A DNA stretch of 64,000 nt, taken from assembly GCA_030386875.1 (NCBI GenBank), contig CM059578.1:24723009-24787008 (forward strand), in the 5' to 3' direction. The position numbers and the translations under genes were made by a program. Shown one piece after another: positions 24,061-57,283 of the stretch. The DNA is from Morinoia aosen (lineage: Eukaryota; Arthropoda; Malacostraca; Amphipoda; Talitridae). The first letter of the stretch is position 1. The number at the start of each line of letters is the position of its first letter. The notes under the pieces were generated by a model. The model made no database searches, was not told where the DNA came from, and saw only the letters and a program-made list of their open reading frames with translations.

Positions 24061-24837
24061 ATGCTCAAAAATTTTTTCTCACTTCTGACCATCGCTATGG
24101 TGACAGCGCCAGCTGTGCCTCAACCATCAGGGTATCATAATTACAACTACCAAGTCCACCCGGGCAAACAATCAAGAGACCCACCGCAATACAAACACCC
24201 TTTTACGTTCCCACGAGATGAAACTCTAGGATGCGCAGCTTGCGCAGGTGAGTGCGACGTACCAGATGAATTCTGCAACTGCGTCAGGCAAAACCCCTGT
24301 TTCGAGAAGAAATATTCCGCTCAAAGTTCTTACGTAGAGCACTCTCACAACGAATTAATTATTGAACCAGGACACGACCTCGAGCAAGATTGCACCATTC
24401 CATGTTATGGAGTGAATGATTTCGGTGTTTGTGCCCCAATCCTACATTGCAACGAGGAGTCTGTTCCTATTCATGGAAATATTAACGTTTTGGTCCCACA
24501 TCGTGTGGGCCAGTTCCCAGGATCGCCTGATGTTCCATTTGTTCTACCACCGCCTCTTGCTCACAGACCAGCAGCAGCTCCAGTTCAAGTTCAAGTTTCA
24601 GCAGCTCTTGAAAGTCATCCTGAAGTAGAGCCCGTAGTGTCTGTCGCACTCCCTTGGACCTCGGCCGGAAACAACGAAAATATTAATAACTTCCAACATC
24701 TCGGGAGCAAGTTATGGGATGGCCAAAAGTACATCAACAATAAGCCAACTCACGTGTATTACAGTGGGGCTCATCAAACAGCCCCACAATTGGTGTTAGC
24801 TTCTTTTTTCTTTATATGTGCATATCATCTTATATAG
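24061..24837 (+). CDS. Gene A: secreted or GPI-anchored cysteine-motif protein, 258 aa
   Basis: Unrecognised single-exon frame. A signal peptide spans about residues 1-20 (FFSLLTIAMVTAPAV). Cysteines 58, 61, 65, 72, 74 and 80 give C-x2-C-x3-C-x6-C-x-C-x5-C, the same spacing as the C-terminal modules of genes B and C. A second set, 111, 115, 124 and 130 (C-x3-C-x8-C-x5-C), has exactly the spacing of the last part of the first set with one cysteine missing, so it looks like an internal repeat. A Pro/Val/Ala-rich linker follows (about 150-200). The last 16 residues (QLVLASFFFICAYHLI) are hydrophobic after a small-residue stretch, as in a GPI-anchor signal or a terminal membrane segment. There is no collagen-like or furin segment. 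Function unknown. Confidence 0.8.
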   Translation: MLKNFFSLLTIAMVTAPAVPQPSGYHNYNYQVHPGKQSRDPPQYKHPFTFPRDETLGCAACAGECDVPDEFCNCVRQNPCFEKKYSAQSSYVEHSHNELIIEPGHDLEQDCTIPCYGVNDFGVCAPILHCNEESVPIHGNINVLVPHRVGQFPGSPDVPFVLPPPLAHRPAAAPVQVQVSAALESHPEVEPVVSVALPWTSAGNNENINNFQHLGSKLWDGQKYINNKPTHVYYSGAHQTAPQLVLASFFFICAYHLI

Positions 24838-26061
24838 AACCTTATTCAATTCTAAATTCCGTTGTTTGTTATTTCGAAAAAGTTTGGTTATTTTAACTAT
24901 CGTTTCATAGCATATAAGTTTTTATACATAAGCGTCGATCGTGGCACTTTTATGACTGATTTCCTTCATTGGCACTCCTAAAAAGTTTGCATCATTTCCA
25001 AAATTGGTGACTGGTTCTAGGAATGTAACTCATTCGTATGTAAATACCTAATTGAGTTTGTGATGCTGTTCATCGAAACTTGATTTTTTCATGTGTCAAT
25101 TTTACCTACGGTTGATCGACAATTCTTTTCATTACAATCATTATATCAGAATGTTATATTCTCAGTAAACGTTATTTCATATTTTGTACAATAATTCACC
25201 CTCACGATTGCTAGTGTGCTAGGACACAGGGTGATGATCCATATCGGTTAAAATCATGTTACGATCACAATTTTGCCTTGAATTGCTCTATGTACCAAAT
25301 TGTTTCCACTTTCGGTCGACCCACACGACAGTGCAGCATCAAACATCAGCGTATTCTGCTACTTCCTTCTCTCACATCTGTCAATCAAATGCAACAGCCT
25401 CTTTTTGCACTTCCGAGGCGTCTTGCTTTCGCCCCATTATTGTATAGCGATTAAGAAACTAGTCTACTGTATACCTTGTCAGCTCGGAATAAAGACTGAT
25501 ACCTGTTTAGTACTTGTATATAACCTAAATTGACCGCAGCTTTGAACTTTGATTGATGCACGTAGAAAATTGCTGGAGGTTGAAGAATAATACGTTATGA
25601 ATATTTCGCCCGAGTAGCTTTATTTAAGCAAGTAAAATCTTGGAAAAGAAAGTAATGGCTGGTCCCAAATCACCGGCTAGCCGACCACACCTGATAGCAA
25701 ATATTCACAAGTCGTGTCTATCGTAACTCATATTACTTGGTTTTGAGCAGCCCTGACAATGTTAGTCAGATTCTTCATTGGAAGAGCGCTGAAACATGCA
25801 CACAGATTTTTTAAGAAAACCTACAATTCTCCGATGTTAAAGGGATAAGAACCCGCATCGATTCAGTAAATTAAATTTTTGGTTCGGGGTATGAAGCGCG
25901 TGCGTTTATGTACGCGCATGTGGTGGACAAAATCAACTAGCAATGACAAAGTGACCGAAACTCTCGTGTTTAACCCACAACGCGCAAATTTACGTAGCCA
26001 AGCCCTGAGTTTGCAGGCCTTACCCTACCAAGATGTTCTCCTTTCAAGTATGCAAAATTAA
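24838..26061. other. 3' flank of gene A, otherwise gene-free
   Basis: A possible polyadenylation signal (aataaa) lies at about 25489. No other feature is recognised. Confidence 0.4.
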
Positions 26062-26255
26062 TTAAAGGTACACGGAATTATGTAGGTGTGCAAAGTCATT
26101 AAGGTGTGCGGAATTATTTGGGTACGCGAAATCATTTAGGTACACTTAATTATTTAGATGCGCAGAATGAATACCATTCTAGGGATGCAGAATTATTTGC
26201 AGATGCAGAATAGTTTAGGTCTGCAGGATACATATTGTTTGAGGTGCGTAGAATT
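26062..26255. repeat. Degenerate repeat of about 20-24 bp
   Basis: Repeated phrases of the type aggtacac-gaattatttagg and aggtgtgcggaattattt, about eight poorly conserved units. Confidence 0.6.
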
Positions 26256-28670
26256 TAATAAGCCCTTTGACAAGCTGCACAAGCACAAAGTTTTAAAATT
26301 ACGTTCCCATAAACGAGGATGACTTTGCAGTCAATACAGACAGGTCACAGGGTAAAAATCAAATCCATTTCATTCAAAACAAATAATAATTGTGTTCAGT
26401 GTGATGTGTGAAGTCTCTGGCAGCGGTGTAAAAAGCAAAAACATTTCATTCAAAATTTAGTAGTTACTTTTTTTTCAGTGGGATGTATTAAATCTATGAC
26501 AGCGATTTTTAGCTCAATGATGAACAAAGTTTAATTAGGCACTAAAATTTCCTGTCAAATTATGCAAGGCGTTGTGTAAGATACGTAATGGTACGCTTGA
26601 GACAGTCGCATTTCCGCCAATAAAGGGCGTCATTGCTTCTTGCTCATTATTTCATTGGAGAAGCTAAATAAGTTTAAACGTCCAATTGATGGTGATGCTG
26701 TCGTTCGTCATCAAGGCTATGACAATATTCCTCTTAATAAACACTTTTTTCCTCTTCTGTGTGCGTTCTTAGTTTTCCCTGTGGCAGATAGATGAACAGA
26801 TGAAACTGAAACTCGATGAAGTTAAATATTGTTTCAATTTAAACAATGTTTTTTACTACATTTGCTCGCGAACTTAAACGAACAGATTCAGCCATTTAGA
26901 AGTCACGTCTGATTATATCGAAATAGGTCTTAATGAAAGAAACCTCATTCCTCGAAAAATTACCGTGAGCGGTTTTGATGCTAACTATTTATCTGATTGA
27001 CCTTATATCTTACGCGTAAGGCATGTACGTGATACGTGTGCGTAAATTCAAGAGATTTCGTGATCAGGAATCCGAATATTTGAAACTGCTAACTTTTCGT
27101 CAACTTAAAGCAGGCAGCTAACCAAGAGCAGTCACAAATTTTTTATTGACGAAATAACAACGAAATTCACATTTTGTTTAAGGATTTTCTGAAACATCGC
27201 AAAAATTTTAGATTGGAACATTTTTCTCAAATACTGATATTTACTAATGAGTTCGGTGCTTCTTAGAAGCTTACTGCTTAATCTGAGCTAAAAATACATA
27301 TTTTAAAAGCTACCCTGAATGCATGCTAGTGGATATGGAAAGTGAATTTAAATTTCTAATTATTTTTGTGGTGAATATTTTAAAATATTTCCAGAACATA
27401 AATATACTAGGCCAAAAATTACAAAATGAATAATATTTTTATTATACTAACGCATCCTTCTCCTCCTCGGCCTCTCAAGCATGATGTAGTTCTCAGAAAT
27501 GCTTTCATTCTTCAACAATCATTACATGGAAAATTCATAATTGCTTAAAATATTGGTCAAAAATTATTGGTCAAGTATTTCAAAAAATATGAACAGTGAA
27601 AAGCGAGATACGAGCCAAGTGTATCAGGTACTGCCTGCATTACCGCAAAATGATTAAGAGCATGTTTGTAGTAACAACAGTTGAATTAACCGTGTGTATC
27701 CCCAGCCTTTGACTAAAATAAGTCATTTTTACCCAACTGTTCGAGAGCACAAATGTTCCATAAACATTTACATGTTTTCATCGCAAAATGCTTTTTGCAA
27801 ATAATACAAAGTTGATGAACAATTATGGAAGATTCGTTAGATTGCTTGCATCAACAACGTTCTTCATTATATCAGATTCGCTTCAATAAAATTATTTTGT
27901 ATCGCAGCACCGTTTGCTCTAAAATATTTTATACTTATAACGACACTAAGCTAATAGCCATTTATGTGTCTTTTGATTTGATAATGATATGATCAGTCTT
28001 CAATAATCAACATTTCAATTGTTTTTATTAATTAACATAAAAGCGAGTTTCGCCCACATAAACAGATAGATGTAATTCTGCGGCCTTGACCGATTTCATT
28101 CTCAATTTTAATTGCCTTGTCTCGCTCTTCCTCAAGAACAAATTCATGCACCGTCGTTATGGTGAATTTGTAGAGAAATTTCGTGGAAATCGGGAGAGCG
28201 CTCATGGTTATTACCGGGAAACAATTTTTGATGCAGAAAATCCAATGAGTACTAGGCTACACTCGTAAGTTCTGTGTATTCCTTGAAGATAGAGGTTCTC
28301 AACCAGGGGTAAGTTTACCCCTAGGGGGTAAAAATTTTATAATAAAACACAGCGGGTAAAAAATTGAAGTACCTGATAATTTAAAAAATAATTCAATCAT
28401 ATTTAATTTTGTAAAATGTGAGAAAGAGAATGCAAAGAATGTGTGGGCGTGAGCTTTACATGGGAATAAGGGGTAAATAGAGAAATACATAAGCCGAGGG
28501 GGTCAGTGATGGAGGAAAGGTTGATAATGGCTGCTTGAAGAAATCAGACATTGTGGCGCATCGCAGTGCGACAACATGGCTGTCCTTGCTCCTGCCTACA
28601 CCGACCAAACAAAGTCTCCTTTGTGCTAGGTAATGAACTCAGTAATAATAATGATTGAGCGATCTATTTG
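26256..28670. other. Gene-free AT-rich region
   Basis: No feature recognised. Confidence 0.4.
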
Positions 28671-28945
28671 TTTGTTTGCATTGTAATAATATTTTTATAC
28701 TTTTTTGTAAAGTTTGTATGCATTGTAATAATATTTTTATGCACTGCTATAATGTTTGTATGCATTGTAATAATATTTTTATGCACTGGTATAATGTTTG
28801 TATGCACTGTAAGAATGTATTTGTGCTCCGTAATTATGTTTATATACACTGGAATAATATTTATATGCTCTGTAATGATGTTTGAATCCTCCGTAATTAT
28901 GTTTGTCTGCTCTATAATAATGTTTGCAGCCACTGGAATATGGCA
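28671..28945. repeat. 21-bp tandem repeat (about 13 units)
   Basis: Units of the type tttgtatgcattgtaataat plus g or a, alternating with tttttatgcactgctataat. Because 21 is a multiple of 3, several frames on both strands stay open and look like repetitive peptides (MHCNNIF type). There is no signal peptide or flanking gene structure, so I treat it as non-coding. Confidence 0.85.
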
Positions 28946-29487
28946 GCGCCAAGTTCGTATACACGAGTTTTGGTCTAATTCGATTTTTTCAGTAGAAGGA
29001 CTTCCAGCGACAACCAGTTATAGACAGTTTAAGGAAACTAAAAATTCAATTATTTGAAAGATAACCGGCCTTAACATTTCTTAGAGCAAATTTCATAACT
29101 AGATAGGAAAAAGCAAATTCAGTTTTTTCAGCAAAAGAATCCGTCTGGCTGTCAACTTGTCAATATGTCAACCCTACTATCTGTTAACCTGACTTAGGCT
29201 TATATGGCTTAGTATTTCATTTTCACAGGTTCTAGATATGAATAAACATGGATTAATTTGCCCAAACAGGAAGTCAGAAGAATGTAGGCAATGCCTCCTG
29301 TATCTAGAGATGGGAAGTACTGATATAGATCGTGTGCAATGAATAAGTCCGTCTCTTCTCCAATGCCAAGAGCATTGCTCTACTTGTGCCGCCTCGTTAG
29401 TAGCACCATTAACCTTCAGTTCGCTCTTGTCTGAGATAGATGAACTATTCAGTTCTCTCATGTCTGAGATAAATAAACTGAAGACGC
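28946..29487. other. Upstream region of gene B
   Basis: No feature recognised before the core promoter. A repeated phrase, tctcatgtctgagata with a near copy 40 bp earlier, lies near 29425-29472. Confidence 0.4.
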
Positions 29488-29522
29488 TATAAAATTCAGA
29501 GATCTTGCTTCGTAGTAGCAGT
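29488..29522 (+). promoter_or_regulatory. Core promoter of gene B (TATA box and initiator)
   Basis: TATAAAA at 29488 is followed, 32 bp later, by an initiator-like GCAGT (candidate +1 at A 29520). The stretch from the box through attc-gagatcttgct and beyond +1 to ctctgcgacc is conserved at gene C (39802-39840), with the same 32-bp spacing. This conservation makes it far more credible than a TATA box alone. Confidence 0.7.
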
Positions 29523-29800
29523 AGCTCTGCGACCACCGACCGAACTGTGACAGCAATCTTAGAAGCTCCTGAGGCTTGTGCGTTGGTTATGGCTAGAAAA
29601 AGCTTTAAACCTTAACGACTCTAACTCCTTTGACTTGTTAGCTGCAACTATAACGATATAACAATCGGAAACTCTCTAACATCAATGACTCAGCCTCCAC
29701 TTCTTAACGATATAGCAATTGAAACCTCTTACCTGTGAATAAAAGCTATTTCAACGCCTGTGAAGTGTCATCGTTTCTCATTAATTGAACAACGTGAAAA

Positions 29801-31669
29801 ATGCACGCCAAAACATTATTCTTTTACGGAATGCTTCTATTTCTAAGCTTTGTTTCCATGGAGGCTGGTGCGAACAGCCAACAACGAATCTTCTTACCAC
29901 TTGGTTCATCCGCTTCTGGAATCATAAAATTAACACCAGGAGTTTCGACAAATGAAGTGGACTTGAGAGAAAAGGAGAATTCTTTGCTTCCTTCAGGAAA
30001 TACGGTTTCGACGTCGACTAAACACAGATCCCGCCGTAGCTACAGAGGGATGCCAGGCCCCCCTGGACCCCCTGGACCCCCTGGACCCGATGGATCCCCG
30101 GGACATCGTGGATTATCTGGATCTCATTGGTCTCCTGGACCCCAAGGATACCACGGACACCCTGGACCCCAAGGATCCCACGGATCTACTGGTTCCCTTG
30201 GCTACCCTGGGGCCCGAGGATCTTCAGGACCTCAAGGATCTCCCGGACGCCAAGGATCTCCTGGATCTCCTGGACACCGTGGGCCTTCTGGACGCCAAGG
30301 ATCCTATGGACCTCAAGGATCTTCCGGACACCAAGGATCTCATGGATTCCCTGGACCTCGAGGATCTCCTGGGCCTCAAGGATCTCCTGGGCCCCAAGGA
30401 TCTCAAGGATCTCCTGGACCTCAAGGATCTCATGGATCCCCTGGTCCTCAAGGATCTCCTGGACGTCAAGGATCTCATGGATCTCCTGGACTTCAAGGAT
30501 CTCCTGGACCTCAAGGATCTCCTGGACGTCAAGGATCTCCTGGACCTCAAGGATCTCCTGGACCTCAAGGATCTCCCGGACGCCAAGGATCTCATGGATC
30601 CCCTGGTCCTCAAGGATCTCCTGGACGTCAAGGATCTCATGGATCCCCTGGACTTCATGGATCTCCTGGACCTCAAGGATCTCCTGGACGTCAAGGATCT
30701 TCTGGACCTCAAGGATCTCCTGGACCTCAAGGATCTCATGGACCTCAAGGATCCCATGGACCTCAAGGATCTCCCGGACGCCAAGGATCTCATGGATCCC
30801 CTGGTCCTCAAGGATCTCCTGGACGTCAAGGATCTCATGGATCCCCTGGACTTCAAGGATCTCCTGGACCTCAAGGATCCCATGGACCTCAGGGATCCCA
30901 TGGACCACAAGGATCCCCTGGACCTCAAGGATCCCATGGACCTCAAGGATCTCCTGGACCTCGTGGATCCGCTGGGTCCAACGGATCACCTGGACCCCAA
31001 GGAACTCATGGATATCCGGGATCTCCTGGATCCCCTGGACCCCAAGGATCCCACGGACCCCAAGGATCCTCTGGACTCCAAGGATCCCGTGAATCCATTG
31101 GATATGGTGGGTCCTCCGGTCCCAGTGGATCCCCTGGACCCGAAGAATATCATGAACCCTCTGTTGCCTTAGGACCCAAGGGAACATCCGTATCTCTTGA
31201 ATCCTCTGGATTCTCTAGAACCCGCGTATCTCCTGGATTTTCTGGACCCCTAGAATCCCCTTGGTCACATGGATCTTCCTACGAATCTTCTGGACCCCAA
31301 GAATTCCACGGATTTTCTGAAACTCAAGTACCTCCTGGGGCTCATGGATCTAATAGACACGCGGGGTCTCCTGTACGCATTGGATCCAATGGATACCGTG
31401 GACCCTATGGAGGGATCCATGAATCCCGAGGGTCTTCAGAATCCCGTGGATACGTAGAACCACACGGATCCTTTGGCTCCTATTCAGGCCACGGAACACA
31501 AGTCGGGCCGGCAGGAACAGTTGTGGATTCGAACACGTGCGGAGCGTGTACGAAGACATGCTTCAAGAGAGACTACAATTGCGACTGTCGACTTGACTTC
31601 GAGTGCGTCAGGAAACGACGTCAGCGAAGGCGCAGGAGGCTGCAGCGGCTGAGGCAGAGATTATTGTGA
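29801..31669 (+). CDS. Gene B: secreted collagen-like protein with propeptide and cysteine-basic tail, 622 aa
   Basis: Unrecognised. Residues 1-24 are a signal peptide ([20 protein letters not shown]). The propeptide carries LTPGVS (44-49) and ends at KHRSRR|S (76-79), a furin-type site. From Gly 83 to about 440 it is a Gly-X-Y core, mostly GSP, GPQ, GRQ and GSH triplets coded by 9- and 18-bp units. From about 440 to 570 the triplet rhythm decays, with Gly replaced mainly by Glu, Val, Arg or Trp, all one base away from Gly codons. The C-terminus has C-x2-C-x3-C-x6-C-x-C-x5-C (from Cys 580), then an Arg-rich tail (KRRQRRRRR and more). Proline in GPP is sparse. The six-frame openness of the core is caused by the repeat. 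A structural secretory product such as silk, adhesive or matrix is inferred, not shown. Confidence 0.88.
30050..31090 (+). repeat. Collagen-coding tandem repeat of gene B
   Basis: Units of 9 and 18 bp such as cctcaaggatctcctgga, arranged in larger blocks of about 81-150 bp (for example, [15 protein letters not shown] blocks recur from about 30540 and 30770). This suggests growth by unequal exchange. Confidence 0.92.
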
Positions 31670-32509
31670 ATGTGTGGTCGGATCTTCTTCATTTGTTGAG
31701 AATGAGAATCATTTTTGAAGTCTGGTAAAATGTGCAGGTTTTATGGACTTGACAGAAGCGGCGAGTTGGAATACTAGGACCAGAGCGAGTTAGAGATTTT
31801 TGTGCTTGCGTAAGGATTTGAGTAGATCATCAAGTTGCAAACTTATCAAGTTTCATACTAATAGTTTTTATACGGATTTTCGCTATTTATTTTACTGTAG
31901 GGAATCATTTCATAGATTTTATTAATTTTATCTTAAAAATTTTCTAGATTTATCTTTTTTTTATATTTTACATGAGGATTCCTCAAAAACACGATCTTCA
32001 TTGCTCAAAAGTTACTGGTACATTCACCATTTTTTGGTAGTTCTAGAAAATCTCAAGATGACAGAAAAGTTTTAAAACAGTTTCGCCAACTAAACTTATG
32101 TAAAATCCCCTTTGAAGTCACCCAAAAGAACAACTAATTATTAGTTGACAACTCATTTTTTAGTTCAACGAGTAACGCGTATTGCGATAACGATGTTGGG
32201 TTGAAAAAATAGTAAGGATGATGAAGGGAATAAATTGTTCTAGACTTGGTTCTGGAATCATATTGTACGAACTAACTCTTTTGGCGTATATTTTTTATCA
32301 GTTACAGCTCATGTAATTCTTATTGCACTTTAACATCCGTTCAACATCTGGAAACAATGTGCGGAAACATAAAACCCGTCGAGGCGAAAAGAACAAAGAA
32401 GAACGGGCTATTTCAAGTAAATAAATACTAAGAATGCAGAACGCCGTCTTTTCAAAAGTGTCTTATCATAAAAATCATCAGGAAGTAACATAAAAATAGC
32501 GGGTATCAT
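31670..32509. other. 3' flank of gene B
   Basis: AT-rich probable 3' UTR and intergenic DNA. An aataaa lies at about 32229. Nothing else is seen. Confidence 0.4.
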
Positions 32510-32915
32510 ATCATTGATGGCACAGACGATTGTGAGAAAAATGTTTAATGTATTTCCTTAGTTCAGTTACTAAGTCTGAGAAAAACGTTAAATGTATTTC
32601 CTTAGTTCAGTTATTAAGTTAGAGCCATGTCATTGATGGCACAGACGATTGTGAGAAAAACGTTAAATGAGTTTCCTTAGTTCAGTTATTAAGTCTGAGA
32701 AAAACGTTAAATGTATTTCCTTAGTTCAGTTACTAAGTCTGAGAAAAACGTTAAATGTATTTCCTTAGTTCAGTTATTAAGTTAGAGCCATGTCATAAAT
32801 GGCACAGACGATTGTGAGAAAAACGTTAAATGTATTTCCTTAGTTCAGTTATTAAGTCTGAGAAAAACGTTAAATGTATTTCCTTAGTTCAGTTATTAAG
32901 TCTGAGAAGGCTCAC
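32510..32915. repeat. 44-bp tandem repeat with a second interspersed unit
   Basis: Units of gagaaaaacgttaaatgtat plus ttccttagttcagttattaa and gtct, interrupted three times by a block with gccatgtcattgatggcaca and gacgattg. This is a higher-order array. Confidence 0.92.
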
Positions 32916-33044
32916 TCACGCTGGTGAGAAAAAAGAACATAGTGACATGGTGACCGGCTAGCCTTGGATGGCAGTGTCCTCTTACTTAGACACATGAGCT
33001 TCTGAGGTAGCCGTTGATGTTGCTGAAAGCATCATAAGAGGAGG

Positions 33045-33175
33045 TAAGGGAATTATAAATAAAAGTGCAAAGAACCCCGTTTTAATGAGATCATTATCTT
33101 ATTTATGAAAGTCAATGAATAAAAATAGTTGGAACGTTTCAACCTCCTTGCTCATTATCAACCTGAAAACGAATT
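33045..33175 (+). repeat. Dispersed repeat (AATTATAAATAAAAG family), longest copy
   Basis: Contains gaattataaataaaagtgca, tttaatgagatcattatctt and tggaacgtttcaacctcctt. Matches 8226-8330 and, inverted, 11566-11664. The last phrase is also echoed near 43270 (gacgtttcaacgatgtctca). Confidence 0.65.
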
Positions 33176-34990
33176 GAGAAAAACTAGTCCAATATCATAT
33201 ATAAATCAAAATGTATCAATCATGGGACAAGGCAAGGCCAATCATTTATATAAATCCATGGAAGTAAATGAATTTACGTGTACATCAAACTGAGTGGGTG
33301 GCTACTCGAAAATTTGAAAAATAGCTTTTGGAGCATAAATGTTAGCTAGTACCTGGTAACGATCTCGGAGAACCTACTTTACCGCACCTACAAATTTATT
33401 GAATTTACTACTTAAATAATGTTAGAATAATTGTTCTCGTGAGACAGAAGTGAAAAATGAATGTCACACAAGGCTGGCAAGAACATTTTACATCAGGAAT
33501 AGAACAATGTAATAAACGTTCACGGAAAGCAGCCACGATCTAAATGCTATTAACCATATATTTGGGATTTATTTGCAGTCTAATACTCACAAATTGTGTA
33601 CCGTCAGGTGGTTGTAGTCGTCAAAATCCGTGAAGATATTTAAGAATTAAATGGAGAATTCATTTGATCTTTTAAATCGATAATCGCTGGCCCATTTGAG
33701 AGGAAGAGATGATGAACAGACAACCCTAAATTTCAGCAAATGTTGAAACCGTTCAAGATTGAAAAATTTGCCAATCAACTAGAAGTTTCAGGGCACCTTT
33801 CGGTTAACGTTTCTCGTCTGCCTTTTATATTTGGAATATCTACAGTCATGTACGCATGAGCTTAACTATGACCATATGATGAAAAGATGTCTAAGGTAAA
33901 TATTTGCTAGTAGATAATAATACAGCACTTTAAGTAAAGATGAAGATTATTGACTTATCAATTCTTCCCTAACTCATGTATGTATTTACATAATTCGTAC
34001 TAGCTTTTGATCACACCACGTAAAAAACTTTGGATCGGAAATTCGGCAATGAGAGTAATGAGAAAAAGTATTTTGTATTTGCTTTTCAGCATGTATGGCA
34101 GCGTACAGTTATTGTTAAGCTCACAGAATGACGTATTATTTTGGTCATGTGTTCTTTCATAGAAGGAGGAAACCTCCTTCTGCATAAAAATTGGACCCAC
34201 AGTAAGGCATTTGTTATTGACGGAGCTTTTTGCCTAATGTCGGATGAACGGGTGCCTAAAGTCGCTGAACTTATTCGGGCCCACAGGTAGCTATACTCAA
34301 ATTTGACCATTGTACTAGACTAAAGAAACAATCTACTTCTGTATAGCTTGTGGTACATAAATTGTTTGAAAAGAATTGTTTAAACGGTACCTCACTACGG
34401 CACCATTTCTCTGGTGTAGTTTAGAGTTCGTTCTAGTGAGTGAAAGGAATTGTACGATATTTTTAATTCGCTGAATGATGGATAAAAAAGAAATACGGTG
34501 CATATTAGGCTTTATGAGTGGGGGACTTCTTGAATTGTAGTTCAGTTGAGTTTTACTAGAAAAAGGGTTGCATTATTGCTCTTCTTGAATTCATTTATGC
34601 ACAATCTATAACTACAGTTTTATGACAGCTATTCTGTACAGTGAATATCAAGTTAGCTATGATAGTATCATGAACATGCTTCAATTAGAACTGTTGCTTC
34701 TTTTCGTATAAAATAATAACCTATTTTCGATAATGATTTTTATTACAATAATGATCAATTTTCGATATTGATATCCCGGTCGAAAAGTTACTTATAACTC
34801 TAGCTGGGGTCCAACAAACGTTTGTTTGTGTTTCTGTACCTGCAAGTTATCGAATACTTTAAAAGCGCTTTCATCGCTCCTTCGTTAGTACAGATCCCAG
34901 CACTCTTTAATGACCTCGACAAGCAACGCACGTGTGTGATTAAGCACATGATTGCAATTCAGTGTACGAAGAGAGTTATTAAATCTCGAT
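33176..34990. other. Gene-free AT-rich region
   Basis: No feature recognised. Confidence 0.4.
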
Positions 34991-39801: not shown

Positions 39802-39836
39802 TATATAATTCGGAGATCTTGCTCTGTACCAACAGT
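39802..39836 (+). promoter_or_regulatory. Core promoter of gene C (TATA box and initiator)
   Basis: TATATAA at 39802 and an ACAGT initiator-like motif with candidate +1 at A 39834, 32 bp after the box start, as at gene B. The intervening attcggagatcttgct and downstream cctgcaacc match gene B (attcagagatcttgct, ctctgcgacc). Confidence 0.7.
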
Positions 39837-40076
39837 CGCCCTGCAACCGCTGAATAGTGAGTGCAGTTTTATGAGCACCTGAAACTCGTGTTTCATACTT
39901 GACGAGGTGCAACTTCAAAACTCAGCTTCTCTAACATTTTGAACTTGGTGAGCAGCTTAACTCACTGAATTTTGAAAACTGCTAAAAGCTGCAGTTTTCA
40001 ATATCTTTTTGGTTGAAAAGAAAGACTGTTCTCAAAGCAATTTGTTACAGTGTTTCTTTTGCCGCAGACTTCGAAA

Positions 40077-40550: not shown

Positions 40551-41954
40551 TGAAAGAAATGCGGGATGGATTCTTCCTCTTCTGATGATTAGGTGGCCAT
40601 TTTTGCTGGATGGTGAATTCGTAGCATTTATGAGCACGATAGAGAGCCATGGGAGATAAAAAGAGATATTGCCGACTGCGAAAGAAGTTTAAATTCAGTT
40701 TATTATATACCCGTGCTCGATTTAATCTATTGTTCGCGAATTTTACCTTCTTTATCTCCCTGAGTTCTGTAGACCAAATTACAGGACGGGGGAAAGATTT
40801 TTTACTAGATATTATAAATTTTTAGAAGTATTCCATATGCATAAGTCTTCTAGTTCATATGTGTTTAGTTTTAATAACCTTCATATTAATCTTTAACGGA
40901 TACTGATCAATAGAATTTGTCTTTCGTCATGTTTATGAAAAAATCGCCCTTCCTTGATCGAGAAGTTAGTGCTGCCATTTTACATCTGTCAGGCGGAATA
41001 AACAAAAACAAATAAATTCAAAACAGTTATTTTAGAAGAGCTAATTAATTCTTGAAATCTCCCCATTAACATCTAAGAAGTGTGCTTCAATTTCCGTACT
41101 TGAAAAACTTACAAGTTTAGTATCAAGTTCAGCTTTCTATAAGGAGCACGCATAACTGGACCGTACACAGATCGTGGAGTTGATGCACGTGTCATGAAGT
41201 GAATAACTAGTGTTAGACTTGAAAGTTATTATTTAATATTCAAATGAGTGCTGTCCATGAAATCAATTGTGCAATTATGAGTTGAAATTGAGCCTTTGTA
41301 TAAAATATGGTTACGATGGGTTAAAATCTGCAGACTCTTGACAGTTTCTTGACTGAGCATAATTTAAATTTGCAACAGAATTTCTTGCTTCGAACTCACG
41401 TTCATTGAAACTGTGCTCAATTTTCGAGAATAAAAGCAGACTAATTATGTTTAAATCAACTCATGCAACAACAACACACGCTAATTTCTATTGCATTTAC
41501 GAACGTTTAATGTTTGAACGTTTAATGTTTGAGTTATTGTTTGTTTGCTATACCATCACATGGAATTTCGATATTTTCTCCCGTGAATAAAATTGCAAAC
41601 ATTATACGTCACTAATGTTGCATCAATCAAAGGATGTGCGGGATACGATAACCAATTGTGTAAATAAGGAACCTGATTTATAAGTTTAAGCAAATTATAA
41701 ATTAAATAATATAGTGAGTGAAGTGAATTGCTGCAATACCTTTCCTAATCCAATCGTTTGTTATTATTGATTAAAATAAAGTGTTTGAAGATAAAAGATT
41801 GTTTTTTCCTTCTACATTAATGCTTCTCGTTTCCGTCCGCTACGTGGTTGGGGATTTACGTCCATGAATCGCCAAGCCGGTGTGAAGAAACCAACATTAC
41901 ATCTGCTCTTGTCCATCGTTCTGCTCACTTACTGGTATCAAAATCTACCTGGCC
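40551..41954. other. 3' flank of gene C, otherwise gene-free
   Basis: AT-rich. An aataaa lies at about 40996 and another nearby at 41010. No further feature. Confidence 0.4.
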
Positions 41955-42215
41955 AGAAATAGGTAGACAATAAAAAACAATCTTTTCGCAGAAATAGATA
42001 CGTTGAAAAATAATTCTTTGGCTGAAATAGATGAACGTTAAAAAAAAATTTTACCAGAAATAGATACACATTAAAAACAATTTTTGGCAGAAATAGATAC
42101 ACAATAAAAACATTTTTTTTGGCAGAAATAGATAAACATTGGCAAACAATTTTTTGGCAGAAACAGATAAATATTCAAAAACAATTTTTTACCAGAAATA
42201 GATAAACATTAAAGA
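41955..42215. repeat. Degenerate 36-40-bp tandem repeat (about 7 units)
   Basis: Units contain gcagaaatagatacacatta and aaaacaattttttg, variable in length. Confidence 0.8.
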
Positions 42216-43317
42216 ACACGTTATTGGTTTGCCAGCGTTATAAACTGAAATGATTCATGACCCAAAAATGTTGAGCACGGTTCTCCAGTCCTATGACTGG
42301 GCCAGTACGTACGTCCTGGAACTTATCGCACAAGGCAACAAGAGCACACCGTCACTGTCGTGTTGGTTCCTAGACTACACAGGATTGTATGCAACCACGA
42401 GAACGTATTGTTAGCTCATTTTCGTTAAATCTTAACAACAATCAAAAAAGTACAAATGAATTCACGTCACGCAGCCAGGATTAAAGACTCCACTCAAACA
42501 TCAGACGCGTTACATGCAACGGCCTTGGTAGAAGACGACTGTAAACTAACGCTCGAGCTTAGGAGCAGCCCTGTTAGCATGAGAACGGTCGATCAGAAGA
42601 CTCTGTAGTTCGTTGAGCTTGATTCTCATATCCTTATCTTATCCCAAGTGGCCCACCACTTGACGGCTCTGTTACTCGAAGTGTTCTCCTTGAGGTAATG
42701 CTGTAATGCGAGGGTACATTCATCAGGGAATCCAATCTCATAGGATTTACCATTGCTAATGATTCACTAACTTACAAAATTCTCCTACTATCGATTTACT
42801 TGTGCGTACACTTATAATTTTGATCAAGTAATTCGTCCATCCATTCATTTCGCATCAACCTTTGCATACATTATCACTACTGTCTACTCCAGTTTATTCA
42901 TCCATGCGTCCACTCTGCATTCATCCTTGTTAACACTACATATATAATAGATCTCCAATTTCTGCTGGAATTTCTCAGTATTAATTATTTAACTAATTTC
43001 TTGTGCATTCACTTTACCATACAATAAAAAATAATTTAAAAATAATTTAAAATTATAATTTTTCCCACACACTGAAAAGTAATTCATTAATTTATCGTCT
43101 CTCTTATCTTGGCTCCACTAATAATGATTCGAAAATTACCTTCGGAAGTAACCTTGAACAAAGTAAAAATGAAAACGATCAACTTTACTAAGCTTGTTTA
43201 TTTGATCAACTGAGAAAAACAATCCGTGTTTCGTGATCATATTAAGAGTAAACATTTATGAGTCCAAAATGCTGACGTTTCAACGATGTCTCATCTGGAC
43301 GTGGGCATAAGTTAATG
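42216..43317. other. Gene-free region
   Basis: No feature recognised. Confidence 0.4.
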
Positions 43318-43420
43318 TTAAGGTATTTTAGTAACCAATGTTTCAACATTTCATGTTTGAACTTTATTGGAAAGAAACTGTTTTCGTTTTTTTTCTTTCT
43401 TTCTTTCTTTCATTGTTTTT
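43318..43420 (+). mobile_element. (CTTT)-tailed retroposon end, degraded
   Basis: Contains ttagtaaccaatg, tattggaaagaaactgtttt and a TTTC run, like the end of 17531-17693. Confidence 0.5.
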
Positions 43421-44884
43421 TTTCAGCTTCATACTGCATTTTATTAAATTACTCGTTTAGTTACACTTATTTTGCTCAACATTCTTCCACTAATCTAGGT
43501 CTTCTTCCAATATATATTAGGGTTGGTCTTTAGGCCTGCATTTACTCTCATCGTCCTGTGCTTTTCAGTATAATCGATGGCCCACAACAATGGAGTCTCT
43601 GGCGTACTCGAAGATAAGTTTTTGTTGCGCTTGAGATACTCTTCCTTTGTACGAGGACTGATTGCAACGTTTATCCATCAGAAATTGACTGTCGAGGACA
43701 AAAGACTCTGAAAAAAAAAGCAATTTTTATTATTAATTTCCTTATATAAGCCTCCATGCCTCACATGACTTCTTCAGCAGTGATGCGCAGTAATATAGTT
43801 TTCAGACCAAGATTTCTGTGTTGAGAGTTGTTTTACTAAAGAAATTAGTCTTATGGCGCAAGTTTTCGTTGAGTAATCTATGCAGTTCACTCGTCAACTT
43901 ACGATCCGCATGCTGCACGAATTGACACTGCCAAATAAGGTATTTAGAATTTATTTTTAAGCAGTTATCTCCTTGAGCTCAATTCACTCGTATGGAAGTC
44001 AACGTATTTGGCTGGCCACCAACTGGCCTTAATGTTGATGCATATTTTTCCTGTTAAGGTGACTCAATGCATCACTTAGTTTAATAATGAACTGTTGGGT
44101 TGAAAGTAGACTGGCTGTTACTGTCAGTTGCATTCGTGAAGACGGTCAGCATAAATTAGCTCAGAGCGAAAATATTATTTACTTTTTGAAATAGAGGGAG
44201 GGAGCAAATAAGGCTGCAGTACGTAATGTATTGACCTTATCAGTGTATTATTCCAGTGATCAGTGTGTTGTCATGTTTCACGTATGTTCCCGAACCATTT
44301 ATTTGTGACAGGTTAATATAATTCAACGCAATCCATGAAACGAACTTTCAATCTTAAATTTTAATCCGAAACAAATTCCCCACGTTGTGGAGATTGCACT
44401 CATATCGCCAGGGTGAACATTTACGAACCTCACAGGGTCTGCCACACTCGGAAGTCTCTGCATCTGAGCATCGGAGATACACTTTTAATTAAACATTATT
44501 TCCGATACACAATAGGCGCTAATGGATCACGTCCGAGGGTAAAATTTCTGTAGTCAAACCTTTGCGGGGCTTTGTCCTCAATAGTGACGAAACAGCTGCT
44601 TTACTTGATGTTCCAATTGATAAACACATCATTAGCGCTACTTTTTGGCCGATCAATATCACGTTGTTTTTCTTCTGACCGATCAATAACTCATCACTTC
44701 TGTCAAAAAATGTGGCCGCTATTCACACTCTTAGTTCTAAATACGCGACCAGCGTGTGAGTCCTAGGACAACTTTGTTAACAGTGTAAAGGAGAGGTATT
44801 TTTGAGTTAATGAAGCTTTCCATTTTGCTAAAAATGGATGAGGATTTTCTGAGCAGCACTAGAGGTCAGTCAAGACAGCAGCGC
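43421..44884. other. Gene-free region
   Basis: No feature recognised. Confidence 0.4.
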
Positions 44885-44919
44885 AGGCATCATCCCTGCG
44901 TGCAGCAGGGATGATGCCT
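44885..44919. repeat. Perfect 15-bp hairpin
   Basis: aggcatcatccctgc and its exact complement, separated by gtgca. It stands alone, with no T-run after it and no relatives in the window. Confidence 0.8.
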
Positions 44920-47630
44920 GAAATATATTACGAAATGTATTACGAGAATTAACTAGTGCTGAAATCGGAGGAAAACCTCACGCTACCTTAATACATCATA
45001 TAATGTCATCCACACAAAAAAGTAGAATAATCTATTCCTAGAAAAATGCTTAGTTGGCCGAATGATCCGAATTGTTCATTCCATGCTATATAAATGAATG
45101 ATCTCGTTTTTACTTTTATGATTGTGCAGAATTTCTATGTGATAGCACACGTGGTTACATAAACTGAAATATAAAAATACCATAAAATCGATCAATCAAT
45201 GTTAACTCAAAATAATTTTTCTCCACTCTCAGGGAGCTCATGATGTTTTGTGTTTTTTTTTATAACTTTGAAAACTTTCCTATCTTGACCGTCTCAATCA
45301 CACAGCGAGTTTAGTAAGTGCAGTGTGGAATGCACAGTGATTTAAATTGTATTGTTTTTCAGGAATAATGATTGAAAGAAAGAATGCATGTATCAAATCT
45401 TACCTAACAAATTATTTGTGCAATTAATTATACAAAATATAAAACTAACGAATTAAAGTGCAAAACTATTAAATTAAAACGATTAAACGATTTTATAATT
45501 TTAACACTGTCTACATATACTCACCAGTACCGATACCCAATTCGACATACAAGTTAATATTGCGATCATAAACCGTTACCGCTGCTCGCCAACTCAGATA
45601 AAGATGTTGGTTTGGTAACATCTGATTCAGTGTTTCAACAGTATACTATTGTGATTCAACTTTCCTGTCACAGATAAACGCACTAATATATTGCTAGCTG
45701 CATACGTATGAGCATTATACGCGTCTTGAGAAGCATTCATCCAAGGTCCATCAGTGCTTGAATGTCATCAAGCAGAACTAGAACAACGAGGTCGTTGTTC
45801 TAAGAAAACTGCCGAGATCTAGATCCGGGCTCTTGACACGCTTGACTTCAACCTTATACAAGCTTTTGTAAGGAAGGGTACGAAAATAATCTTGAAGAAT
45901 AGCTTAGCTCGCTAACACGTGTGAGTGAATTGTTCTACTTTTGAAGTTATTGGCTCACACCATTAAATTTACAAAAACGTAGACGATAGCGAGCGTAATT
46001 ATATCTACCAACTATTTTCCATTATTGTAACTCGTCTTAGACATTTCAGATGAGCGTTAAGTTTTAATATAATGAGGAAAAAGTAATGCATTCATCTTTT
46101 CATATTCGCGAGTTCTTGTAGAAGATCGTGTGATCATATGAATGTTCTAATGAATTGTAGGAATAAAATATGACAGTGTGGTTTCAAGCTAAGCCCCACA
46201 GGAAGAAAATCCGCAGTAACTGCGAGCCGCAATAATCGCACAGTCAAGCAGTGATTAATTTGTAACTCTTCCTTCAAGTCTTGCGTATTCAAGTGCTAAT
46301 TTTTCGTTTGACTTTAAATTTTCTTATCCAGTTTTCTATTAGGTAAGATGTCGGGCTTCAATGTCGCCATGAATAACTGGACATATGTAGATATAAAATA
46401 TTATACATATATCACAGCTTTGGTAAGCATGATCGATACTTTCTTCGGTCGTGTGGTTTCAATTATAATTGAATATCGTTGCAACAATGGATGGCAATCA
46501 AACCCTAGACGGCAACAAAATGTATTTGCGATGATGAAAACAGATTTTCTACACGGATTTGCTATACGTATTGCTGAAAAACCTTAACGATCTAAATACT
46601 TTGAAAGCTGGTAAATACTTCAGTTACTAATATAAGACAGAGAAATTCGCCACAGAATTTTTTACCTCCGTGTTCAGGTGTCGTCATTGTCGAAGAGATG
46701 TAACAATGACTTTAACGAATCATTCTGAATAACATAATTCTCTCTGACGAGCTGGAGACAATAGCAAAGAGCGACTTTGAATTTGATTAACACGTTAACA
46801 GCGGAGGCTTAAACTGAAGTTCAATTTTCAACTCAAATGAGAGTTAATTTTAAAAACCAATTTTTAAAATAACGAATATGAAAAAATCATGCCATTTTAA
46901 AGAATGTACACATTAAAGTGAAGTATTACAATTAATGACGCACATATGCGTCAGCTACACCCAGCAATAGACCACCAGACGTACACGTGCGTCAAGCGGC
47001 AGCGAGGTGTTAAGAAAGTGTTAGCTGTTGTAGCACAATTAGAAAATTCTAATTTATGATCATGAGCGAGAAAATTGTTTTGAAGCACACCGATGATGAG
47101 ATGAGGACTTCGTTTCGAAAAATAAAGATCTTCACTCTTCTTGCCTGGTCGACCTCCGATGTCGTTCCAGAAAATATATATTTGAAAATGTCGCGCATTG
47201 GTCGGGAATGGAGAGTTTAAAAATAAATACTTCCGTGTAGACGCTGGTTTTCCACTTCTGCTGAGCAACTACTTTTCCTGTAGAGCGATGTGCTGAGTAA
47301 AACTTGATCTTACTTGATTTCACTCATTAAGATCATATTAATTCTCAATATGATGTCTTCGAACAGGTGACGCGTGTCTCGTATGAAACCCTGAAGGCTA
47401 ATCACAGCTGTTGGCGAACCCCTCCACTGTTAAACTTCACAGAAAGCAGCGCATTGGCAATTAAATGTAATTATTATATCATCTCGTCACAGCTTCCAAA
47501 CTCAGACGCAATCTTCTCTAAAAACGAAGTGCTCCTAATACGAATATTGAAAATATACTTTATTCGATCTTCCGGACAGCCAAAGTAGGTCATTCAATCA
47601 TCTGAGAAAAAAATTGCATTAAATACGTTG
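44920..47630. other. Gene-free AT-rich region
   Basis: A 79-codon frame at 46348-46587 and others here lack homology, codon bias and splice context. I do not call a gene. Confidence 0.4.
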
Positions 47631-47639
47631 TATGAAACC

Positions 47640-47730
47640 TATTGTCAAGTTCCGGTCAGGTTCAGAGCGCTCGAAGCACGCACAGCCGCCAACGTAAATT
47701 TGAGTCTCGGACCACCGATTGAGGCACCGG
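47640..47730 (-). pseudogene. Decayed C-terminal cysteine module of gene D
   Basis: Past the stop that ends the D extension, the same frame reads SVVRDSNLRWRLC, which lines up with [15 protein letters not shown] in gene B and IVGDSNMCRACTEAC in gene C. Around 47655-47685 the next frame gives GGCACFERSE, echoing the C-FKRD part. The cysteine spacing is lost and the Arg-rich tail is absent. This is a probable relic; the alignment was made by eye. Confidence 0.5.
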
Positions 47731-48387
47731 TTATATTGAGTTGTCTTGTTCGTAGCTTCCAAATTGATGCCCGTAGCCTCCACTGGAATTTTCTTCATAT
47801 CCTCCGTAAAAACCTTGATCGAAGCCCTCGCGAGATCCTGGGCTGGTACCACCCGGTGAATTTTGTTCGTAGCCTGCCTGAAGACGACGGCCATTGCTAC
47901 CATAGAGGGCTGGACGGCGACTACCATGAAAACTTTGTTCGTTGCCACGAACGAAGTGAACGTTCTCTTCTCTCGAATTTTGCCCGTAATTTTCGTGAGA
48001 ATTTTGTTCGTTTTCTACTTGAGAATTTTCCTCGAAGTCGTCATCTGAATTTTGATTGTATTGTTTGTCCGAACTTTGTTCATGGCCTCCATTGGGTCGG
48101 AAGTCTTCGACGGAGCCTCGCCCATAGCCTTCGTAGAGTCCTAATCGGTAGCCTTTAGAAGCGATTCGTCCTGGTAATCTATCAAAATTTTGTTCGTTAT
48201 CACTATAAGAGCCTTGCCAATTCGCTACGAAGTAGCTTTGTTCGTGGCCCACAAATGAGCCTGGTCTAAATTTTCCGGGATGATTTCCCCTATCCACGTC
48301 GCGTTCAGAACTCTTATGAGAGGGAATTTTCTCAGTGGAATTTTCTCTGTAGCTTTCATTCCAATTTGGTTCGAAGGTTGAATTCAA
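47731..48387 (-). pseudogene. Frameshifted continuation of gene D
   Basis: In a different frame from the main reading frame of D. It begins where the octapeptide array stops and keeps the same style of sequence (NWNESYREN, HEQSYFVANWQGSYS, QNSDDDFEENSQ, ending GSYEQDNSI and a stop). Its low-complexity Asn/Glu/Ser/Gly/Tyr composition and final GSY match the pre-cysteine part of gene B. This shows that it was once joined to D. A one-base insertion or two-base deletion near 48385-48395 would explain the break; a short intron or a sequencing error is also possible. There is no obvious good donor at the break. Confidence 0.65.
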
Positions 48388-50024
48388 TTTGATCCATAGG
48401 TTTCATTCAAATCTTGTCCGTAGGTTTCATTCAAATCTTGTCCGTAGGTTTCATTCAAATCTTGTCCGTAGGTTTCATTCAAATCTTGTCCGTAGGTTTC
48501 ATTCAAATCTTGTCCGTAGGTTTCATTCAAATCTTGTCCGTAGGTTTCATTCAAATCTTGTCCGTAGGTTTCATTCAAATCTTGTCCGTAGGTTTCATTC
48601 AAATCTTGTCCGTAGGTTTCATTCAAATCTTGTCCGTAGTTTTCATTCAAATCTTGTCCGTACGTTTCATTCAAATCTCGTCCGTAGGTTTCATTCAAAT
48701 CTTGTCCGTAGGTTTCATTCAAATCTTGTCCGTAGGTTTCATTCAAATCTCGTCCGTAGGTTTCATTCAAATCTTGTCCGTAGGTTTCATTCAAATTTTG
48801 ATCGTACGTTCCATTCAAATTTTGTTCGTAGCTTACAGGTGAATTTGACCTGTAGCTTTCATTGAAATATCCTCCATGAATTCCATCAATGTTTTCGCCA
48901 CGACTTTCGGTCAAATTTTGAGCATAGCTTTCATTCAGATTATGCTCAAACCCATCATCGGTGCTCACTCTGTAGTACCAACTGCTACCTCTTCCGTCTC
49001 GCATATGGTTTTCAAAACTTCGGGGAGAATTATAGGAATTTTGTCCGCTGCCTTCCATGAAGTCACTTTCGTTGTCGCCATGAGGGCTACTTCCACTGCC
49101 TTCTTCTGAGCTGCGTTCGTTGCTGCGATCTGAACCATCTCCGCTCCCTTCATCTGGGTCGTTTTCTTTGCTTTCATCCGGGTCATTTTCTATGCTTTCA
49201 TCTGGGCCACTTCCATTTCTTTCATCTGGGCCATTTTCTATGCTCTCATCTGGGCCATTTTCTCTGCTTTCATCTGGGCCATTTTCTCTGCTTTCATCTG
49301 GGTCATTTTCTCTGCTTTCATCTGGGTCATTTTCTATGCTTTCATCTGGGCCATTTTCTGTGCTTCCATCTGGGCCATTTTCTGTGCTTCCATCTGGGTC
49401 ATTTTGGTTGATTTCATCTGAACCATTTTCTATGCTTCCATCTGGACCATCTTCTTTGCTCTCATCTGAGCCACCTTCATTACTTTCATCTGGGCCATTT
49501 TCTTTGCTTATATCTGAACCAAGTTCGTTTCGTTCATCTGAGCTAATTTCATTAGTTTCATCTGAGGTAATAATCGTATTTTCATTGAAGCTATTTACTC
49601 TATTTCTACGCAAGTCGCGGTGATTTCTCCTCTTTAATCCATATTCGTTACTTTCATCTGATCCACTTTCGTCGCTCTCATCCGATCCACTTTCGTCACT
49701 TTCGTCACTCCCATGTGAGACTCGGGAGTGTCTTCTAGAAGTTCCTGCATATCGTAACGCACGATTGCTACGACGGAATCTTTTTCCATCTGAAACATCA
49801 CTCAGCTCTTCAAGGCTTATTGGGCGATTATGAACGCTTACCCCCGGCACAAATTTCAATGCATTCGACTGTGAATTTGCAATCTCTTCTGAAGAAACTT
49901 CGCCCCATGTTGCCTCTTGGCCGAGAATTGGACTTTGAGGAACTGTTGCATGGTCACTTGCTACTTCTTCGGCGAGCCAGCAGTACTGTAGCACCATCAA
50001 TGAGAATATTCTTACTAGCGTCAT
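48384..50024 (-). CDS. Gene D: secreted family member with acidic and N-glycosylation octapeptide arrays, 546 aa
   Basis: Opposite strand to A-C. ATG at 50024. The signal peptide (LVRIFSLMVLQYCWLAEEVAS) is followed by a propeptide with FVPGVS (58-63) and KRFRR|SNRALRYAG, the furin-type site at 82-85. The RFRRS core is identical to gene C. The mature part starts with Ser/Asp/Glu (SDESDESG), then an octapeptide array ENGPDESR (about 180-290, 24-bp units) and a linker. It ends with about 18 units of YGQDLNET, nearly all with an N-x-T sequon. The frame stops inside the array end (YGSN-stop), while homologous sequence continues in another frame (47731-48387). So D is either truncated, a recent pseudogene, or broken by an assembly error. 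Function unknown; a glycosylated acidic secretion is inferred. Confidence 0.82.
   Translation of the reverse strand: MTLVRIFSLMVLQYCWLAEEVASDHATVPQSPILGQEATWGEVSSEEIANSQSNALKFVPGVSVHNRPISLEELSDVSDGKRFRRSNRALRYAGTSRRHSRVSHGSDESDESGSDESDESGSDESNEYGLKRRNHRDLRRNRVNSFNENTIITSDETNEISSDERNELGSDISKENGPDESNEGGSDESKEDGPDGSIENGSDEINQNDPDGSTENGPDGSTENGPDESIENDPDESRENDPDESRENGPDESRENGPDESIENGPDERNGSGPDESIENDPDESKENDPDEGSGDGSDRSNERSSEEGSGSSPHGDNESDFMEGSGQNSYNSPRSFENHMRDGRGSSWYYRVSTDDGFEHNLNESYAQNLTESRGENIDGIHGGYFNESYRSNSPVSYEQNLNGTYDQNLNETYGQDLNETYGRDLNETYGQDLNETYGQDLNETYGRDLNETYGQDLNENYGQDLNETYGQDLNETYGQDLNETYGQDLNETYGQDLNETYGQDLNETYGQDLNETYGQDLNETYGQDLNETYGQDLNETYGSN
48398..48835 (-). repeat. 24-bp array coding YGQDLNET
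   Basis: About 18 direct units; on the plus strand taggtttcattcaaatcttg plus tccg. Most are identical. Variants (cgtccg, tttgatcg, agttttc) gather at the 5' end of the coding strand, so the last ten or so units are the youngest. Confidence 0.95.
49140..49565 (-). repeat. 24-bp array coding ENGPDESR-type octapeptides
   Basis: About 17 diverged units; on the plus strand gctttcatctgggccatttt plus ctat or ctct. Same unit length as the other array of gene D but unrelated sequence. Confidence 0.9.
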
Positions 50025-55475: not shown

Positions 55476-55476
55476 T

Positions 55477-57262: not shown

Positions 57263-57283
57263 TTGTCTAAGGACGTCTTATAT

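Follow-up and report, generated by a model that had tools for sequence, protein, structure and literature searches.

Minicollagens, the proteins of the cnidarian nematocyst capsule, are described (PMC4863159) as having a signal peptide, a cleaved propeptide, a Gly-X-Y stretch and a C-terminal six-cysteine domain able to trimerise. Both ends of these proteins carry the cysteine pattern CX3CX3CX3CX3CC and are flanked by polyproline, and the triplets number 12-16 (same source). Orchestin (PMC3335408) is a secreted acidic calcium-storage phosphoprotein of a talitrid amphipod. Here, we analysed 64,000 nucleotides of the talitrid amphipod Morinoia aosen (hereafter the window; GCA_030386875.1, contig CM059578.1, positions 24,723,009 to 24,787,008), which carry a cluster of four genes, A to D. 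Two of these, B and C, are like minicollagens, as described there, in the signal, the propeptide, the Gly-X-Y triplets and the C-terminal six-cysteine domain. They differ in the cysteine spacing (C-x2-C-x3-C-x6-C-x-C-x5-C), in having this domain at the C-terminus only, in an Arg-rich tail and in a triplet number that runs from 4 to 106, and the minicollagen pattern as given there does not occur in the modules of the present family. The composition of D fits an acidic phosphoprotein, which is a likeness to Orchestin, as described in its source, by composition alone; B and C are basic, whereas Orchestin is acidic.

The gene cluster and its copies

A, B, C and D are all single-frame open reading frames with a hydrophobic N-terminus, as scored on a crude scale that 12 ORFs in the window pass. 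The cluster occurs three times on one chromosome (C23), in a segmental duplication of more than 60 kb, and an Rfam search of the window gave no match.

1..60713, no strand: A-B-C-D cluster block, three copies on C23, left end not reached in the window

The three copies could be an assembly artefact and the reading frame of D in the window a sequencing error, as the high identity over long stretches and the position of the D frame difference inside a repeat might suggest. However, the copies lie 1.7-4.5 Mb apart and one is inverted, the match of the window copy to both others ends at about 60.7 kb in the listed alignments while copies 2 and 3 still match beyond this point, and the divergence between copies is uneven, from 1% to 18%. 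We regard this explanation as highly improbable, although a sequencing error may account for the D frame alone.

Genes B and C

29488..29580, + strand: B promoter block with TATA box, common to C (p 0.0005, 2,000 shuffles)
29801..31669, + strand: gene B, collagen-like preproprotein of 622 aa, single-frame ORF (Pfam Collagen, E 4.1e-56)
29801..30037, + strand: B signal and propeptide through R-x-R-R (residues 1-79), from the propeptide alignment; site present in three copies
30137..31090, + strand: B unbroken run of 106 Gly-X-Y triplets (residues 113-430), by triplet count
31538..31606, + strand: B six-cysteine module (residues 580-602), from spacing and profile test
31607..31666, + strand: B Arg-rich tail, net +12 by charge count
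39802..39890, + strand: C promoter block with TATA box, common to B (same comparison)
40077..40550, + strand: gene C, preproprotein of 157 aa with four Gly-X-Y triplets, single-frame ORF
40077..40316, + strand: C signal and propeptide through R-x-R-R (residues 1-80), from the propeptide alignment; site present in three copies
40425..40493, + strand: C six-cysteine module (residues 117-139), from spacing and profile test; model pLDDT 87
40494..40547, + strand: C Arg-rich tail, net +9 by charge count

The propeptides of B and C align beyond shuffled sequences (p 0.0005), and the TATA promoter block common to both genes spans 93 bp. The R-x-R-R motif ends at residue 79 in B, 80 in C and 85 in D, and these positions are the same in each gene's three genomic copies. 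The mature proteins carry net charges of +22 (B) and +8 (C), and the module and tail of B are unchanged at the amino acid level across the three copies, which are young (75 codons, dN 0). A sequence-only reading of this DNA had proposed that B and C end in the same cysteine module and Arg-rich tail, both of which we found in each protein, and that their cores are unrelated. The latter did not hold, as C has four Gly-X-Y triplets directly after the cleavage site, B has its run of 106, and the Trinorchestia relative described below also has a short collagen stretch. Judged from the sequences, the cores thus differ in length rather than having been exchanged for unrelated ones, and B and C are true paralogs, with related propeptides, R-x-R-R site, collagen core, module, Arg-rich tail and promoter block.

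Relatives in other amphipods

Protein-database searches were carried out with a C/C5 profile (C5 being a further gene of the genome, see below), with gene A and with the C4 gene. The profile found FHG87_012680 of the sand-hopper Trinorchestia longiramus, a homolog of C (E 1.7e-21) with the same layout as B and C, and its propeptide aligns beyond shuffles with those of B (p 0.0005) and C (p 0.002). Homology of B, C and this protein over the N-terminus and the module is therefore shown at the level of sequence comparison. Homologs of the C4 gene are FHG87_002991 in T. longiramus and LOC108668453 in Hyalella azteca. All three proteins are uncharacterised and lack functional annotation, and their names are absent from the open-access papers searched. 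No paper on A-D or on the module proteins was found in the open-access literature, that on amphipod silk and tegumental glands included, subscription literature being outside the scope.

The cysteine module across the genome

Besides the six-cysteine spacing, a four-cysteine form of the module occurs in the genome. As the mark of the family we took the spacing C-x3-C-x7/8-C-x5-C in a secreted protein, with Cys1 and Cys4 optional, and this was found in the A, B, C, C5, C4 and C10 genes. Nine distinct genes on several chromosomes carry the module, the smallest encoding precursors of 70-76 aa; as the genome searches scored only the best candidates, further members may have been missed. The family is thus wider than first proposed, extending by search to other chromosomes and other amphipod genera.

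With a four-cysteine profile and the cysteines held fixed, the modules of B, C, C5 and the Trinorchestia protein scored above all 2,000 shuffles each (p 0.0005). The module of the 70-aa C10 peptide was also similar beyond its cysteines (p 0.0005), while modules 1 and 2 of C4 were unsupported (p 0.063 and 0.65). Since the C4 and C10 genes came from a search chain begun with C5, some selection is built into the test with this profile as a whole. The links of this chain are weak (C5 to C4, E 0.11; C4 to C10, 0.023; C10 to the small C10 gene, 0.17, with 0.0038 in the reverse search), and the 30-residue C module as the sole genome query finds only C, B and C5 (seven matches). The segment past the last cysteine has a charge of +12 in B, +9 in C, +9 in C5 and +4 and +3 in the C10 peptides, and neither the C4 protein nor the 302-aa C10 protein has an Arg-rich tail. 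The N-terminus of C5 showed no similarity to the B/C/Trinorchestia profile (p 0.92), and the module and basic tail are all that C5 has in common with B and C.

Several genome matches were set aside: two to C5 that contain a stop (L045, L046), three 57-aa frames with E 3-5 (L012-L014), three others (L050, L052, L053), the P0001 matches at C6, C24 and C23:20.4 Mb (E 1.2-10) and one at C14:74.4 Mb (E 6). In Pfam, the C4 and C10 proteins and their relatives had weak matches, none of which reached the cut-off; these were set aside as well.

Gene A bears the module as well:

24061..24837, + strand: gene A, 258 aa, single-frame ORF with a six-cysteine module, a four-cysteine module and a hydrophobic C-terminus
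24232..24300, + strand: A six-cysteine module, from spacing; p 0.017 beyond cysteines
24391..24450, + strand: A four-cysteine module (without Cys1 and Cys4), from spacing only

The proposal that A carries the cysteine module is borne out, as the six-cysteine spacing of B and C is present and none of 200,000 random cysteine placements gave the same. For its second module, similarity beyond the cysteines was not supported (p 0.42, four-cysteine profile). A is 99-100% identical to both other copies, the protein-database search returned no homolog among 559 candidates, and its hydrophobic C-terminus may be a GPI signal, which it resembles.

Predicted structure of the module

AlphaFold models the C module as a hairpin followed by a helix bearing Arg residues (pLDDT 87), and the module is accordingly predicted to be a hairpin with a basic helix after it. 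The models of C4 modules 1 and 3 have the same order of elements, while that of module 2 has no hairpin, in a C4 structure that is poor overall (pLDDT 50). Searches of Pfam, NCBIfam, the PDB and a fold search gave no significant match to the module; PDB sequence matches to 3iir (E 0.39), 6ei6 (E 0.51) and 6w5v (E 0.24) were set aside as weak. TIL-type inhibitors were the top-ranked Foldseek names (the insect metalloproteinase inhibitor IMPI in four and bee AMCI in one of ten rows), and a TIL fold was rejected, with no significant fold or profile match.

Gene D

48384..50024, - strand: window version of gene D, 546 aa, single-frame ORF; family membership unsupported
49149-49564, - strand: D acidic S-x-E octads, from the repeat reading
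48349-48831, - strand: D N-glycosylation octads, after the S-x-E octads, from the repeat reading
47731..48380 (start approximate), - strand: D tail, out of frame in the window, in frame in both other copies, from copy comparison

D is truncated in the window, where a frame difference in the last octads cuts off about 200 C-terminal residues that are in frame in both other copies. The protein is acidic (mature charge -90 / -82), and copy 3 has 31 S-x-E motifs, against a mean of 10 and a maximum of 21 in 5,000 shuffles. No cysteine was found in mature D in any of the three copies, and so D lacks the module; its promoter has no similarity to those of B and C (B-D 0.77, C-D 0.73).

B, C and D had been read as sharing a signal peptide, propeptide and furin-type site. 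The hydrophobic N-termini and the R-x-R-R sites stand, while kinship of the D propeptide was not confirmed: in the comparison set in advance, the D N-terminus matched the B/C/Trinorchestia profile no better than shuffles (p 0.26 for window D, 0.42 for copy-3 D; residues 1-22 and the furin site were left in place in the 5,000 shuffles of each). Pairwise values (propeptide only / with furin site) were mixed: B-D 0.0035 / 0.016 for window D and 0.09 / 0.16 for copy-3 D, C-D 0.13 / 0.64 and 0.075 / 1.0, and Trinorchestia-D 0.58 / 0.60 and 0.19 / 0.34. On these results, D cannot count as a proven paralog of B and C. Its Pfam matches were set aside, including HemN_C (E 9e-06, just above the cut-off), since no stretch of this low-complexity protein passes alone. 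Of the general layout first proposed, conserved ends around interchangeable middles, what remains is a C-terminal module behind very different middles, without D, the C5 propeptide or a swap of the B and C cores.

Discussion

Our preferred reading, in which we place somewhat less than even confidence, is that B, C, C5 and the small C10 genes form one amphipod family of secreted preproproteins, marked by a disulfide module some 25 residues long that in most cases has a basic tail after it, and that these cationic tips bind polyanions, either singly or on collagen rods. A furin-like protease would cut off the propeptide at R-x-R-R, and the module would lock three B chains together and start the triple helix. 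B would then be a rod with three cationic tips; in C, C5 and the C10 peptides the tip would stand alone. Its partners, in a secretion or in the extracellular matrix, could be acidic or phosphorylated proteins, D for example, as well as mucins, glycosaminoglycans or the surfaces of microbes. As to the setting, we can only guess: a structural or adhesive secretion is possible though less likely than not, host defence a less likely candidate, and a calcium-storage or cuticle matrix less likely still.

Other roles can be drawn from the same data. The whole cluster, D included, could encode one two-component polyelectrolyte glue, silk or egg coat, with B and C as the polycation and D as a phosphorylated and glycosylated polyanion. 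The opposite charges of B/C and D, the S-x-E count of D copy 3 and the close linkage retained in three copies would be in keeping with this. However, linkage among the copies is inherited from the duplication, and D lacks the module, promoter similarity to B and C, and supported N-terminal homology; we consider this scheme rather unlikely as a whole, although D is a possible acidic partner of B and C from outside the supported family. The small basic disulfide peptides with their 70-76 aa precursors, the Arg-rich tails and the tandem, multi-copy genes could also point to host defence, where the small members would be cationic disulfide antimicrobial peptides and B a defence collagen displaying them multivalently. 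On the other hand, no known antimicrobial family was matched in Pfam or NCBIfam, the charge of the C10 peptides reaches only +2 and +4, and the unchanged module and tail of B give no sign of an arms race, albeit in young copies, so that we find this role unlikely. It is more doubtful still that D, and perhaps B and C, are part of the matrix in which moulting amphipods store calcium, or of their cuticle matrix. D is acidic and rich in S-x-E, and a talitrid phosphoprotein of calcium storage is known (Orchestin, PMC3335408), but acidic composition is weak evidence.

Returning to the family of cationic tips, we tentatively propose, as one possibility among others, that a domain so far found in amphipods only has two uses, one as a small cationic disulfide peptide and the other at the end of a collagen rod, and would thus be a crustacean analogue of minicollagens with an independent origin. 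The number of disulfides would change in steps, and as Cys1 and Cys4 are present or absent together, a Cys1-Cys4 bond is predicted. Within a single genome, the same C-terminal module is found in proteins of graded size, from precursors of 70-76 residues up to a collagen-like protein of 622 residues, which allows direct study of how a collagen fusion grows. Should B/C and D turn out to act together in one secretion as partners of opposite charge, a coacervate or mineral matrix of crustaceans could be studied with them as testable models.

The triplicated cluster and its genes

Four single-frame open reading frames (ORFs) sit where the sequence-only reading had placed the window genes A to D:

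24061-24837, plus strand: A, ORF of 258 aa
29801-31669, plus strand: B, ORF of 622 aa
40077-40550, plus strand: C, ORF of 157 aa
48384-50024, minus strand: D, ORF of 546 aa

Searches of the genome (1.99 Gb, 29 contigs) with C, A and the D N-terminus as queries found this cluster three times on contig C23: in the window (24,723,009-24,787,008), at 26.46-26.49 Mb (copy 2) and, inverted, at 29.27-29.29 Mb (copy 3). Among the long alignments listed, identity between copies is mostly 91-99%, but 82-88% around D and 84-92% for the window vs copy 3 past 57 kb; compared with the other copies, window A is 99-100% and window C 96-97% identical. The R-x-R-R site ends at residues 79 (B), 80 (C) and 85 (D), as had been read, and is constant across all copies. 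A ends in a hydrophobic stretch resembling a GPI-anchor signal (24781-24834, plus strand), so A may be membrane-bound, in contrast to the secreted B and C.

Other features lie in or beside the cluster:

3100-13440, minus strand: exons, next to the cluster and within the triplicated block, encoding a DBH/MOXD-like copper type II monooxygenase that has a DOMON domain; DOMON match at 9326-9577 (E 1.4e-13), Cu2_monooxygen match at 3100-3531 (E 8e-05, below the cut-off)
11909-12180: tandemly repeated unit of about 60 bp, occurring fewer times in the window than in copies 2 and 3
55236-55475, plus strand: ORF of 79 aa with a membrane-like stretch at its N-terminus and no Pfam match, perhaps the opening exon of a further gene

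B and C are paralogs

By their sequences, B and C are paralogs. Their propeptide alignment beats 2,000 of 2,000 shuffles, and upstream they have in common a 93-bp block starting with a TATA box (p 0.0005); the remaining nine pairs of upstream regions among A, B, C, D and the module gene on contig C5 showed no similarity (lowest p 0.17). Synonymous divergence is lower in the C-terminal 71 codons compared (dS 0.59) than in the N-terminal 84 (dS about 2.0, close to saturation; Fisher p 0.003 on rounded raw counts), which suggests that the 3′ end was exchanged or converted later. The cores, earlier called unrelated, do differ in length, yet both are Gly-X-Y, with a 106-triplet run in B and four triplets in C.

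A wider family of cysteine modules

The cysteine module occurs in nine distinct genes, A, B and C included. The others are:

C5, 36.600 Mb: 147 aa, R-x-R-R at residue 86, Arg-rich tail
C4, 86.935 Mb: 362 aa, three four-Cys modules
C4, 86.972 Mb: tandem relative of the former (85%), known as a genome match
C10, 8.411 Mb: 302 aa, module at the extreme end
C10, 58.445 Mb: 76 aa
C10, 58.438 Mb: 70 aa, counted from the Met judged likelier

The two small C10 products comprise barely more than a signal, a short pro-region with a basic site, the module and a basic tail. The C5 gene has the module and tail in common with B and C, and its propeptide showed no similarity to theirs; a partial retroelement-like open frame (L033:1-2552, minus strand) lies about 2.4 kb from it. 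The Arg-rich tail is absent from some members (the C4 gene, the 302-aa C10 protein).

Nine modules, when aligned, have just four invariant cysteines (C-x3-C-x8-C-x5-C, x7 in one row). Cys1 and Cys4 of the six-Cys form are jointly present in four rows and jointly absent in five, from which we infer a Cys1-Cys4 disulfide. The single genome matches linking one module gene to the next are weak (E 0.005-0.17), and the 30-residue C module alone as genome query found C, B and C5 only. We scored modules against 2,000 shuffles each, cysteines fixed, with a four-Cys profile trained on five modules (C4 module 3 from three species, two from C10); this test is not blind, since it was a chain starting at C5 that led to the four-Cys genes. 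The C, B, C5 and Trinorchestia modules each scored above 2,000 of 2,000 shuffles, as did the 70-aa C10 peptide, which lies outside the training set but was also reached through that chain. For A, p was 0.017 with module 1; module 2 (p 0.42) found no support beyond its cysteines, nor did C4 modules 1 (p 0.063) and 2 (p 0.65) stand out. The evidence for these last three is cysteine spacing, joined by topology in the case of C4 module 1.

When a profile made from the three copies of C and from the C5 gene was run against the protein database, one of 210 candidates matched: FHG87_012680, from the talitrid sand-hopper Trinorchestia longiramus (E 1.7e-21; 39% identity to C). This protein carries LTPRVS, RLRRSYPG and the module, along with a short stretch of collagen type and an Arg-rich tail. 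With the C4 gene as query, E was 1 or lower for just two of 2,416 candidates, relatives from T. longiramus (55%) and Hyalella azteca (41%). These relatives make a talitroid amphipod the probable host of the window. As the three protein searches need shared short words, the restriction to amphipods is as seen and no proven limit.

D stands apart

D had been grouped with B and C as one family with exchanged cores, a grouping that we do not retain: against the N-terminal profile of B, C and Trinorchestia the D N-terminus scored no better than random (p 0.26 and 0.42), the outcome that the sequence-only reading had itself named as counting against the family. Pairwise tests were mixed; the best, B against window D (p 0.0035), rose to 0.09 with the copy-3 ortholog, and C and D match over 25 nt at the cleavage site (84%, E 0.046). 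D may have a distant link to B and C, which is not claimed here. Mature D is acidic (charge -90 in the window, -82 in copy 3) and lacks cysteines. It contains 28-31 S-x-E sites, putative targets of a secretory kinase, and 15-23 N-x-S/T sites.

Around D (46089-52977), the alignments listed put the identity of the window to copies 2 and 3 at 82-93%, and from 52974 on it is 99% identical to copy 2. Binned at 500 bp between 46.5 and 50.5 kb, its identity to them is 0.79-0.94, vs 0.97-1.0 between copies 2 and 3; the window D N-terminus is 78-80% identical to theirs. Across D, dS is 0.26 and dN 0.14 for the window vs copy 2, and 0.03 and 0.01 for copy 2 vs copy 3. This region has had an uneven history, possibly through gene conversion or an old variant around D. 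Window D loses its frame close to the end of the octads, whereas in copies 2 and 3 (662 and 690 aa) it reads through into a tail that is still present in the window in a different frame; in this tail, dN (0.07-0.09) is below dS (0.19).

A possible assembly mechanism

We propose that a furin-like protease would cut off the propeptide and that disulfides would form within the module, which would lock three B chains that zip into a rod, while the basic tails would attach to polyanions. A single tip would be provided by each of C, C5 and the small C10 peptides, and D, which is oppositely charged, is a possible partner. Orchestin (PMC3335408) offers a possible lead that bears on D alone. As far as sequence goes, the setting may be a gland secretion, defence or a calcium matrix.
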